Assembly (NCBI RefSeq): GCF_014699035.1
Contig: NZ_JACXAA010000013.1
Span: 124,001 to 188,000 of the forward strand
Reading direction: 5' to 3'
From: Spirosoma validum
Lineage (GTDB): Bacteria; Bacteroidota; Bacteroidia; Cytophagales; Spirosomataceae
DNA length: 64,000 nucleotides
The notes beneath the pieces are model-generated. The model made no database searches and was not told where the DNA came from. It saw nothing but the letters and a program-made list of their open reading frames with translations. A program made the position numbers and the translations under genes. Position 1 is the stretch's first letter. Each line of letters begins with the position of its first letter. This document shows positions 34,762 to 39,520 of the stretch, piece after piece.

Positions 34762-34833
34762 GGCCGATTCGTCTAGCGGTTAGGACATCGCCCTTTCACG
34801 GCGGTAACACGGGTTCGATTCCCGTATCGGTCA
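34762..34833 (+). tRNA. tRNA-Glu (anticodon TTC)
   Basis: A complete cloverleaf reads directly: acceptor GGCCGAT pairs with ATCGGTC, D-arm GTCTAGCGGTTAGGAC, anticodon stem TCGCC/GGCGG with loop CTTTCAC (anticodon TTC), and T-arm CGGGTTCGATTCCCG. The CCA end is not encoded. It has its own promoter and terminator. No integrase or disrupted tRNA copy is adjacent. Confidence 0.95.
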
Positions 34834-34848
34834 CTAACATTTTGCCTA

Positions 34849-36418: not shown

Positions 36419-37993
36419 TCAGCGCAGGAACAGCCGCTCTTCTTCGTGATCCAGATAGTAGAGATGCTTGCGGACAATGTCTTCGTCGAGGGTCATGGTG
36501 CTGCGGTTTTTTTCAACCAGCCATTGTCGTTGCCGATCCAGAATATGCCGGTACAGTTCTTTGACCGGCTCGCTAAGGGTAAACGCTTCATCACCCGCTA
36601 ATTTACGGGAGCTGTGGTCGATCAGTTTTTTGTAAACGGGCTGGGTAAGCTCGTCCTCGCTCAGGTTTTCCCGGATGTATTGCAGGGCCAGAGCGGCAAA
36701 CTCTTTTTCAATAAAGGCATCGACCTTCTCTTCCGGCTTGACATAATCCCGCTCTTCAAAACCGAATTTTTTTATGATAGCCGGTAGCGTAAGGCCCTGA
36801 ACAACAAGGGTCAGCAAAATCACGACGAACGTAATGAACAGGATAAGGTCACGTTGTGGGAAAGCGGATCCGTTGTTCAGGTGAATAGGAATGGATAAAG
36901 CGGCTGCCAGTGAAACCACACCCCGCATACCGGTCCAGCCGAGCAACAGGGGCGTAGTCCAGCCTGGATTTGAGCTATCGGCTACGGTTATAAAGTTGCG
37001 CATCACCAGGGTTGTGATGACGGCTCCGTAGCAGGATAAAATCCGGACAACGATCAGAGCCACGGTAATCAGTACGCCATAGCCAATCGCTTCTCCGATA
37101 CTGGTACTGCCCAGACCCGAAACAATTTGCGGCAGATCGAGCCCGATCAGGATAAAGACAAGTCCGTTCAGGATAAAGGACGTGCTTTCCCAGAAATTGA
37201 AGCCTCTTATTCTGGATCGGCCGCTCAAAAAGTTGTACCGGTTGTAGGACATCAGCAGCCCACCACTCACGACCGCCAGCACCCCCGAACTATGCGCTCC
37301 TTCGGCAGCAATGTACATGGCGTAGGGCGTAAGAATGGACAGAGCCATATCGATATTAACATTGGTAGGGAGCAGTTTATGGATTTTCATTAACAGCCAC
37401 CCAACCAGCAGACCGATGCCTACGCCACCGATTACCATCCACGAAAAGCTAAGCGAAGCATCCTGCACGTCAAACGTACCGGTCGACACGGCTATCAGCG
37501 CAAACTGAAAGATGATCAGCGAGGACGCATCGTTGAGCAGGCTTTCGCCCTCCAGAATAGACGACAACCGCTTGGGCACCTTAACGAATTTCATGATGGC
37601 GGCCGCGCTGATCGCATCGGGGGGCGACACAATACCGCCCAGCAAAAAGCCCAGCACCAGGGTAAAGCCGGGAATAAAGTGGCGGGCAATCAGGGCGGTG
37701 CTCAGGGCCGTAACAAAGACGACCAGAAAGGCAAACGAGAGGATGATACGTCGCCATTTCCACAGCTCTTTCCAGGAAACGGACCAGGCAGCCTCGTACA
37801 ACAGCGGGGGTAAAAAGATGATGAAGATCAGCTCCGGGTCCATGTTGAGCATCGGTACGCCGGGGACAAAGCTAATGCCCAGGCCAGCCACCACCAGCAA
37901 CACCGGATAAGCCACTTTTATTTTCTGTGCTAGGATGATCAACAGCAACATGACCAGCACCATCCCCAGATAAAACGTAACGTGTTCAAGCAT
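36419..37993 (-). CDS. CPA1-family Na+/H+ antiporter
   Basis: A 524-residue inner-membrane exchanger with about 12 helices and a C-terminal cytoplasmic tail of roughly 120 residues. The family motifs are LIFIIFLPPLLYEAAW, GGIVSPPDAISAAAIMK, the Asn-Asp pair in LEGESLLNDASSLIIFQFA and GWTGMRGVVSLAAALSIP. These indicate an NhaP/CPA1-type exchanger for Na+ (or K+) against protons, acting in pH and salt homeostasis. No regulator adjoins it. Start ATG at 37993. Confidence 0.9.
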   Translation of the reverse strand: MLEHVTFYLGMVLVMLLLIILAQKIKVAYPVLLVVAGLGISFVPGVPMLNMDPELIFIIFLPPLLYEAAWSVSWKELWKWRRIILSFAFLVVFVTALSTALIARHFIPGFTLVLGFLLGGIVSPPDAISAAAIMKFVKVPKRLSSILEGESLLNDASSLIIFQFALIAVSTGTFDVQDASLSFSWMVIGGVGIGLLVGWLLMKIHKLLPTNVNIDMALSILTPYAMYIAAEGAHSSGVLAVVSGGLLMSYNRYNFLSGRSRIRGFNFWESTSFILNGLVFILIGLDLPQIVSGLGSTSIGEAIGYGVLITVALIVVRILSCYGAVITTLVMRNFITVADSSNPGWTTPLLLGWTGMRGVVSLAAALSIPIHLNNGSAFPQRDLILFITFVVILLTLVVQGLTLPAIIKKFGFEERDYVKPEEKVDAFIEKEFAALALQYIRENLSEDELTQPVYKKLIDHSSRKLAGDEAFTLSEPVKELYRHILDRQRQWLVEKNRSTMTLDEDIVRKHLYYLDHEEERLFLR

Positions 37994-38115: not shown

Positions 38116-38145
38116 TATTATTGATTCGTGAATTATTCTGTAAAG
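38116..38145 (+). repeat. Left inverted repeat of the DUF4062 segment
   Basis: A 30-bp sequence beginning TATTATTGATTCGTGAAT, matched in inverted orientation at 39491-39520 (25 of 30 identical) and as a direct, weaker copy at 39406-39433. It starts 26 bp after the DUF4062 stop. Confidence 0.6.
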
Positions 38146-38170
38146 TAATTTATAATCTTAATTTTATCGC

Positions 38171-39328
38171 TTATAGATCTTTTTGTATTGATCTTTCTAA
38201 TTCTTCGAGCAAATTAACATTTGCTGTAAATTCATTTATGATATCAGTTAAAACACTAACTGTTTCCTTTTTAGCTTTAGCATATTCAGTTGTCATTTGG
38301 GGAGTTGCTATTACTGATTGTCTCATTCCGTCTATCTGCTCTATAACTACTATGATAGTCTCTTTTAAATTTATCAGACTCGACACTAAAACTTGTTTTT
38401 CTTGTAAATCATCAGTTATACTACTATGTAGCGTTAATACAATGTAATAATACTTGATAAGTAATTTTTGCTGATAATTTAATTTAGAAATCTCTTCCCT
38501 TGTCTTTTTGCAATAGGCAAACATATTGCCAGATAATTGGTTAATTAACTTTTTTAGCTCTCTCATTTTGCTAGACTGATCTAGCGCATTTGCAAGATAA
38601 ATTTTTTCAGTTTTTTTATTTAAATTATTACTTAATATTGTCAAATTATTAGTCATCCTATTATATATTTCCGTTAATTTAACAGATTCTTTCATGGTGA
38701 TTTCAAGAGCTTCAAAATAACCAATATCTTCAAGATTAGGGCCTTCTACAACTTCTGCTTGTAAATACTCCTCTTGGATAGATACAACCATAGGCACATC
38801 AGTCTTGTATTCTTTAAGAACAGAAATTAAACTGAGTCTTAATAATTGTTCAAATTCTTCCGCTTGATTAAATTCTCTATAATAAACACCTTGATCAAAT
38901 AATTCTTGCTGAAATTTTCGGACTTTTGACAAACTTTCTAAGTCAATATCTTTGAGTGACAAGGGAGGAGTAGTTTTAAAAAAAAATAATACTTCAGTTG
39001 ATGTAGTCTTATTTTTCTCAAAAGCACGATCAAATTCTTCTTTGGTACCCGACTCAGCTCTATTAGTTGGAGTGCCAAACCTATTCCACATAATACCAAT
39101 AAAAATATCATAATCATCTGCAATTTGCCTATTAATCACATCTTGAGGATCAAGTCCAATTGATGGATGTGTGTGAGTTTTCCATGCAACTAATTCAAGT
39201 TTAATTGCATTATTTGAATAGTTGCCAATGTTAATTTCATCAATGACTTTTTTGACAATTTGACGTTCTGCTTTTACATCTCCTGGTGAAGCTAGAAATA
39301 TTTTGTAAAGAGTAATATTGGTAGGCAT
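38171..39328 (-). CDS. DUF4062-domain protein with alpha-helical C-terminus
   Basis: 385 residues. The N-terminal 155 residues match the DUF4062 family: YKIFLASPGDVKAERQIV (8-25), ELVAWKTHTHPSIGLDPQDVINRQ (45-68), DDYDIFIGIMWNRFGTPT (71-88) and GTKEEFDRAF (94-103). DUF4062 is usually the N-terminal module of larger STAND-type NTPases or other conflict-related proteins; here no NTPase motif follows. Residues about 180-385 look helical, with long charged amphipathic stretches. The coding sequence is strongly AT-rich compared with flanking genes and it is bracketed by inverted repeats, implying recent transfer. A role in defence or stress is inference; the protein could also be a signalling adaptor. 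ATG at 39328 places the DUF4062 motif at the proper distance. Confidence 0.8.
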   Translation of the reverse strand: MPTNITLYKIFLASPGDVKAERQIVKKVIDEINIGNYSNNAIKLELVAWKTHTHPSIGLDPQDVINRQIADDYDIFIGIMWNRFGTPTNRAESGTKEEFDRAFEKNKTTSTEVLFFFKTTPPLSLKDIDLESLSKVRKFQQELFDQGVYYREFNQAEEFEQLLRLSLISVLKEYKTDVPMVVSIQEEYLQAEVVEGPNLEDIGYFEALEITMKESVKLTEIYNRMTNNLTILSNNLNKKTEKIYLANALDQSSKMRELKKLINQLSGNMFAYCKKTREEISKLNYQQKLLIKYYYIVLTLHSSITDDLQEKQVLVSSLINLKETIIVVIEQIDGMRQSVIATPQMTTEYAKAKKETVSVLTDIINEFTANVNLLEELERSIQKDL

Positions 39329-39405
39329 AAAAACTTAGTTTAATTTTTAATTATTCAAATAAAAGGTTCAAATTTATTTTTAAAACTAGTACTATTCCGT
39401 CTTCC

Positions 39406-39433
39406 TTATTGATCCGTGAATGAGTCTATGAAG
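39406..39433 (+). repeat. Internal direct copy of the segment-end repeat
   Basis: Starts TTATTGATCCGTGAATGAGTC and matches the left terminal repeat apart from scattered mismatches. Together with 39491-39520 it forms a local inverted repeat of about 20 bp, upstream of the DUF4062 start, so it could also be a regulatory hairpin or operator. Confidence 0.55.
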
Positions 39434-39490
39434 AAATGTAATGGTTAAAGTTGTCATGGAATAACCAATCCTGCAAAATCCAGCTTTAAT

Positions 39491-39520
39491 CTTTAAAGAC
39501 TCACTCACGGATCAATAATA
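39491..39520 (-). repeat. Right inverted repeat of the DUF4062 segment
   Basis: Reverse complement begins TATTATTGATCCGTGAGT. Matches the left repeat at 25 of 30 positions. Sequence to the right (39521 onward) is AT-rich but does not repeat the left flank in an obvious target duplication. Confidence 0.6.

Follow-up and report, generated by a model that had tools for sequence, protein, structure and literature searches.

A candidate IS630-family cargo unit around a putative NADase gene in Spirosoma validum

The window analysed here comprises 64,000 nucleotides of Spirosoma validum, and coordinates given without a locus label are window positions. Between a Na+/H+ exchanger gene and the remnant of an HTH gene lies a segment with a single gene, which encodes a 385-aa protein carrying the Pfam DUF4062 domain (Table 1). 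The gene is enclosed by a 30-nucleotide inverted repeat (38116-38145 and 39491-39520) whose arms are complementary at 25 of 30 positions (83%). The GC content is 0.29-0.32 inside the segment, compared with 0.53-0.55 in the closest windows to its left and right that contain genes only. These two properties had been picked out by an earlier sequence-only reading of this DNA, and both hold. The DUF4062 gene itself has a GC content of 0.299 and a GC3 of 0.205, and the adjoining exchanger gene has a GC3 of 0.644.

Table 1. Features of the DUF4062 locus, in window coordinates.
Feature	Position	Strand	Remarks
Flanking Na+/H+ exchanger gene	36419..37993	-	Used for finding the orthologous site
Candidate mobile unit, TA to TA, 1399 bp	38119..39517	.	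Outward IS630-type ends
Left solo end	38119..38145	+	TATTGATTCGTGAATTATTCTGTAAAG; GTAAAG type, as at MITEs
DUF4062 gene, 385 aa	38171..39328	-	TIR-like domain (about residues 1-175) and helical C-terminal domain; predicted catalytic Glu98; Swarozyc/PADLOC PDC-S60-like
MITE, 111 bp, TA to TA	39407..39517	.	Strong predicted hairpin; 78 bp upstream of the DUF4062 start codon
MITE inner end	39407..39434	+	
Outer right end	39490..39517	-	Common to the MITE and the whole unit
HTH gene remnant, 56 codons	39611..39781	+	N- and C-terminal parts kept, middle missing; the pair is whole in the nearest relative

A stronger inverted repeat is nested on the right of the segment (39406-39434 and 39490-39518, 29 nucleotides, 90%), so the right-hand part is a complete 111-bp miniature element (MITE). 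The end motif therefore occurs three times, at 38119 (+), 39407 (+) and 39517 (-). The earlier description of a simple pair of terminal repeats overlooked the copy at 39407; the outer pair joins a solo end to a MITE. A weight matrix trained on 124 ends, none of them from the window's own genome, gives them 43.7, 34.4 and 37.0 bits, the maximum being 52. In 40 first-order random sequences of 64 kb no score exceeds 11.7 bits, far below all three, so the ends are not a product of chance. Three ends also rule out a simple two-ended 1.4-kb element. The left solo end sits 1.29 kb from the MITE, no weaker inner left end is found in the unit at 5 bits or more, and the unit thus has a MITE on one side and a single end on the other. 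GTAAT, not GTAAAG, is present in five of six IS ends compared. The unit has no transposase, and the search for one gave no match in the window. Integration linked to a tRNA is rejected, the only tRNA found in the window being at 34762-34834.

The dinucleotide TA, the target of IS630 elements, is present at both outer ends of the unit. It is near-invariant among 139 distinct ends (T in 137, A in 134) and so belongs to the conserved end motif, which means that TA alone is no proof of a duplication. The earlier statement that no clear target duplication was found stands insofar as none is demonstrated; it had overlooked the TA at both ends. In the alignment of ends, conservation starts at a T just outside the TA, and nothing is conserved farther out, as would be expected of elements that target TA.

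The end motif is widespread in the genus. In the window's own genome it is found in 21 places at three or fewer mismatches, compared with 2 places for the reversed pattern. The ends recur in 25 of 36 genus genomes; the reversed control is absent from all 36, and the per-genome numbers of end places leave out G000 and are at least-values for G035. Within 114 fetched loci (621,545 bases), 176 ends score 14 bits or more and the reversed sequence yields none; the loci were mostly picked because they bear ends, and counts of end-bearing units are partial because repeated ISs were sampled at one or two places per genome in several genomes. These ends form 38 MITE-size pairs (one a 3-bp artefact), 21 of them exactly 111 bp, and 19 IS-size pairs, 11 of them 1069 bp. 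The remaining 62 belong to no MITE-size or IS-size pair, so that solo ends are frequent. End pairs of the same spacing number 8 in G010 and 6 in G001.

The 1069-bp element at locus L104 has one HTH_33/HTH_32 ORF and one DDE_3 ORF, and the latter is an NCBIfam IS630 equivalog. Judged by sequence, the end motif is the terminus of an insertion sequence of the IS630 family, which related species have in multiple copies. The window unit resembles IS630/Tc1/mariner elements in having the same ends and the TA, and its terminal inverted repeats are common to a transposase-bearing IS630 element, but the HTH_33/DDE_3 ORFs of such relatives are missing from it. An IS630 transposase that could act in trans, as the sequence-only reading had proposed, is found in relatives; in the window's own assembly only fragments are found. 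No whole IS630 transposase is found in that assembly, which contains two DDE_3 matches (one of 109 positions, the other with a stop) and one further short remnant. On the evidence of this assembly, with its fragments only, the unit is now stranded, unless an intact copy lies outside the assembled sequence or was overlooked.

Solo ends also occur in the single-contig genomes G004 and G005 (L113, L114, L116, L118-L120 and L122-L128), some of them with the variant GAATTCATCAGTA. No transposase remnant is found at these loci, and only L123 has a possible degenerate partner, about 100 bp away.

The DUF4062 protein matches the PADLOC profile PDC-S60 (E 3e-57). Passages of a 2026 preprint (PMC13174449) describe DUF4062 proteins as a family of TIR-like NADases, Swarozyc, and the Klebsiella pneumoniae member KpSwz as an anti-phage protein that is triggered by phage portal protein and requires Glu97. 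The match of the S. validum protein to the KpSwz structure 10wc is weak (phmmer, E 0.0098), includes the N-terminal domain only, and stops at residue 175. The predicted N-terminal domain model has a pTM of 0.81, and Foldseek aligns it to the plant TIR domains of RPS4 and L6 (TM 0.52-0.55) among flavodoxins that score similarly. The DUF4062 domain with a predicted TIR-like fold, by which a Swarozyc protein is recognized, is thus present, with the flavodoxins scoring similarly. All 18 aligned homologues share residue Glu98 (alignment A3, 18 sequences; alignment A2 has 14 and leaves out L194, L204, L206, L208 and L210-L214). In a weak alignment, Glu98 falls on chain position 84 of 10wc, which reads Ala. 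By its numbering we take this Ala to be the E97A mutant, in which case Glu98 would be the equivalent of KpSwz E97.

Further points of likeness to KpSwz, as it appears in those passages (PMC13174449), are the conserved Glu, the existence of a C-terminal region and a patchy distribution. For the C-terminal regions, the likeness seen is that both proteins have one, the sequence match ending at residue 175. A PDB profile search with the full alignment is dominated by helical proteins, and Foldseek with the full-length model (pTM 0.44) gives no clear answer. The cargo is probably an anti-phage enzyme that destroys NAD+, a TIR-like NADase of the Swarozyc type. The C-terminal domain (residues 200-385; 38171-38731) is modelled as four long helices, for which Foldseek finds alpha-helical pore proteins at E 0.06-0.1 only, which is not significant.

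The DUF4062 gene is rare in the family and, by its composition, foreign to the genome. Matches at E <= 1e-20 are found in 7 of 222 family genomes, and one of these is a close homologue. This is the only close full-length homologue, in Spirosoma luteum (DSM 19990; L194/G011), where a gene with 68% amino acid identity is found at a different locus, its neighbours being genes for an Hsp70 and a tetrapyrrole methylase. The gene is therefore neither syntenic nor general among relatives, and vertical inheritance, against which the earlier proposal was to be judged, is ruled out by the patchy distribution and by the other locus of the close homologue. Differences between the S. validum and S. luteum genes at codon positions 1, 2 and 3 (0.25, 0.15 and 0.47) fit purifying selection. 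Among PLSDB plasmids, 160 records have a partial DUF4062 match and none covers 80%. Enterococcus is the source of 130 of these 160 records.

A MITE-type element lies less than 300 bp upstream of the start codon in three of the seven family hits, if the window and a degenerate case (L285) are included. The gaps between gene and MITE differ, being 78 bp in the window, 53 bp in S. luteum, and 264 bp at L285. The S. luteum MITE is 111 bp long. With 4 of 112 bases different from a second copy in that species (L092), it has the appearance of a recent insertion; no second end at 6 bits or more is found at this locus. L285, in a genome of another genus (G191), encodes a protein of 716 aa whose DUF4062 match falls slightly short of the Pfam cut-off (24.0 versus 24.7) and which also has a weak STAND NTPase match. 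Its 112-bp MITE-like palindrome has a left end of 28 bits and a degenerate right end (<3 bits), and no second end is found at 3 bits or more in a scan that also misses the right end of the MITE itself. The other four family hits have no end, either at 5 bits or more within 10 kb (G008) or at 6 bits or more within about 3.5 kb each (L191-L193). Among 21 loci from a DUF4062 search, none except S. luteum (L194) has a convincing end. L210 was considered as an additional MITE beside a DUF4062 gene and rejected, since its 10-bit match lacks a partner repeat and is probably a chance hit.

Of the relatives with synteny, G006 is the nearest, and its exchanger protein is 93% identical. Alignment of the flanks with this genome stops about 30 bp before the left end of the unit and resumes about 50 bp past the right end. 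The G006 slot between the exchanger gene and the HTH/PIN pair is occupied by an Mrr-type restriction gene (Mrr_N/Mrr_cat; L099 2743-3606), which implies a replacement or a variable slot rather than an empty site. That a restriction gene is found here suggests a small defence site of variable content. No empty site is found in G006, the sole relative with alignable flanks, and no second complete copy of the unit was found; the search for an empty site that the sequence-only reading had in mind thus led to another gene. The HTH_17/PIN_3 pair is whole in G006 (L099 3746-4791), and the HTH remnant in the window has lost its PIN partner.

Other genes between the same ends, another expectation of that reading, were found. 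L173 (2067-2701) is an IS shell in which a 185-aa SUKH (SMI1/KNR4) protein replaces the transposase. This protein begins with MANYKQS, as the transposase does, and one end of the unit continues in a way that resembles the 3' end of an IS transposase gene, the other in a way that resembles its 5' end. L167 (2510-3902) has two inverted 138-bp MITEs, identical at 132 of 138 positions, that bracket a carboxymuconolactone-decarboxylase-family gene and a gene for a cyclic-nucleotide-binding regulator whose ORF extends into one MITE. L010 is an 874-bp unit with a single gene for a 217-aa secreted protein. L013 has the same plan as the window, namely a solo end, a RibD_C gene and a MITE. L156 comprises a MITE, a GmrSD_N gene, one other gene and a solo end, and L121 comprises about 180 bp of an IS end, a gene of 281 aa and a MITE. 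In L176 and L175, MITEs are present on both sides. Related secreted proteins with the start QVGIGT..PDPSAQLDV are encoded in the two-ended unit L010 (2564-3217) and beside a solo end at L014 (3387-4055); both have a weak BclA_C match below the cut-off.

A block of 806 bp containing the MITE and the RibD_C gene is common to G033 and G016 at 79% identity; other matches between the two stretches consist of overlapping repeats (63-76%) and do not form contiguous flanks. Eleven RibD_C loci in other species (L216-L226) have an end only at L216 and, weakly, at L220, so the RibD_C gene also persists or moves without ends. The RibD_C-type reductase gene with its upstream region (L013 2504-3399; L216-L226) forms a block of about 700 bp in 12 Spirosoma genomes. 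Its flanks are mostly non-homologous, with exceptions in G004/G005 and partly in G003/G008, and a few copies are beside a MITE.

End-bearing units are close to one another more often than random placement predicts: six close pairs were counted by hand and 0.62 are expected (Poisson P 5e-5), under a null model that counts every end as a unit and ignores hot spots and shared slots. L121 (in G005) and L173 (in G034) adjoin the same homologous gene block, with 69% identity over 2.2 kb (L121 421-2735; L252 438-3674), so some clustering of units reflects shared slots. The flanks of L013, L010, L121, L167 and the MITE L011 led to no empty site. In G003, the L121 flank can be aligned up to the left boundary of the unit and the right flank does not follow; this match looks like the terminator of the upstream gene.

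Mobile insertion cassettes that carry qnrS2 or qnrD are known to consist of IS-type ends around one or more passenger genes, lack a transposase, and are presumed to be mobilized in trans, in the portions of the sources considered here (PMC5444012, PMC3913671, PMC3129680). According to the same portions, the qnrS2 cassette of pAC3 also contains a MITE, which in pGNB2 is upstream of the gene. The window unit is like these cassettes in having a passenger gene between IS ends and no transposase inside, and among the systems compared the pAC3 qnrS2 cassette, to the extent that these portions describe it, is its closest parallel by arrangement. Unlike the ends of the qnr cassettes as given there, those in the window are of IS630 type with TA, and the MITE is built of these ends and itself contributes the outer right one. 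The cargo also differs, being a probable anti-phage gene, and the window has no insertion event on record and no duplication beyond the TA of the motif. For trans mobilization in the same genome, the assembly offers transposase fragments only. By plan, the window unit may be called a mobile insertion cassette, provisionally, because no empty site or second complete copy was found.

Cargo between MITEs is likewise known from the integron mobilization unit and from MITE-flanked integrons, as outlined in part of PMC5444012. In such composites the DNA between the MITEs moves together, a plan of which L167 is a clean example; in contrast, the window unit has one side cut down to a single end. No paper on IS630 cassettes, Spirosoma MITEs or defence cargo is among the best matches of a literature search, judged by title and start of abstract, which is not proof of absence from print.

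The reading that we slightly favour, with a probability of about 0.54, is that 38119-39517 is a non-autonomous cargo unit of the IS630 family, a mobile insertion cassette with a MITE as one side that was moved by its ends. An IS630 transposase, supplied in trans from an intact copy, would pair the outer left end at 38119 with the outer right end at 39517, and the gene would have been inserted at a TA between the exchanger gene and the HTH/PIN locus. Units of this kind probably form once two MITE or IS ends flank a gene; the outer ends would then stay and the inner ends decay. The cargo, if of Swarozyc type, would sense a phage component, hydrolyse NAD+ and abort the infection. This reading is favoured by the outward IS630 ends, the recurring gene-bearing units and the excess of close pairs, and it is weakened in that no empty site was found, solo ends are frequent, and neither S. 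luteum nor G191 yielded a second end. That the outer ends agree at just 25 of 30 positions also counts against it. The non-autonomous mobile cargo of the sequence-only reading thus gains from recurring ends, other cargo and the rarity of the gene; a jump is not demonstrated.

A serious competitor, which we hold at somewhat less than even odds, is that the insertions were independent. The DUF4062 gene would have come by another route, for example by recombination at a variable defence slot, the MITE would have inserted later upstream of it, the solo end would be downstream by chance, and the three ends would never have acted together. The variable slot with its Mrr gene in the nearest relative is consistent with such a history, as are the slot shared by two other cargo units, how often ends occur singly, the failure to find a second end in S. 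luteum or at L285, and the apparently recent arrival of the MITE in S. luteum. However, close pairs are about 10 times more frequent than under random placement, and a MITE beside DUF4062 in three of seven hits (one degenerate) is hard to obtain by chance, unless hot spots explain it. Also, the solo end points outward in all six mixed units of MITE and solo end (window, L013, L018, L121, L156 and L150), a count in which the L018 end is at the 14-bit threshold and further weak ends (for example at L143 and L150) are not included. The outward rule does not fit the cases of IS and solo end at L104 and L129, and at L110 it fits one IS and not the other.

It is very improbable that the MITE persists for a regulatory role, in which its hairpin, terminator or promoter would restrain or drive an NADase gene that could be toxic, with mobility incidental. 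The MITE is indeed 5' of the gene in all three DUF4062 cases, 5' of RibD_C in L013, L216 and L220 (degenerate) and 5' of the GmrSD_N gene, and its fold has -44.2 kcal/mol (z -8.7), but strong folding is expected of any near-perfect palindrome this long, promoter-like matches are no more frequent than in shuffles (9 versus 9.2, in a scan that had no Bacteroidota promoter model), and L121 has its MITE 3' of the gene.

Returning to the cargo unit, it suggests a role for small transposon remnants in transporting immunity genes one by one, the jump itself not having been caught. A wider proposition, which we regard as rather doubtful, is that the IS630-derived 111-bp MITEs amount to a loose gene-cassette system in Spirosoma and its family, in which genes are captured again and again, one at a time, between MITE or IS ends and shuffled between species, usually with the MITE 5' of the gene; several of these genes are defence-like (Swarozyc-type NADase, GmrSD, SUKH). 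The routes by which single-gene immune systems are scattered among bacteria are mostly unknown. If IS630-type ends do carry immune genes singly, they would be a concrete and testable vehicle for this spread, TATTGATCCGTGAATTAGTCTGTAAAG in facing copies would be a signature by which more such units could be found, and a newly described NADase family would be linked to a carrier.
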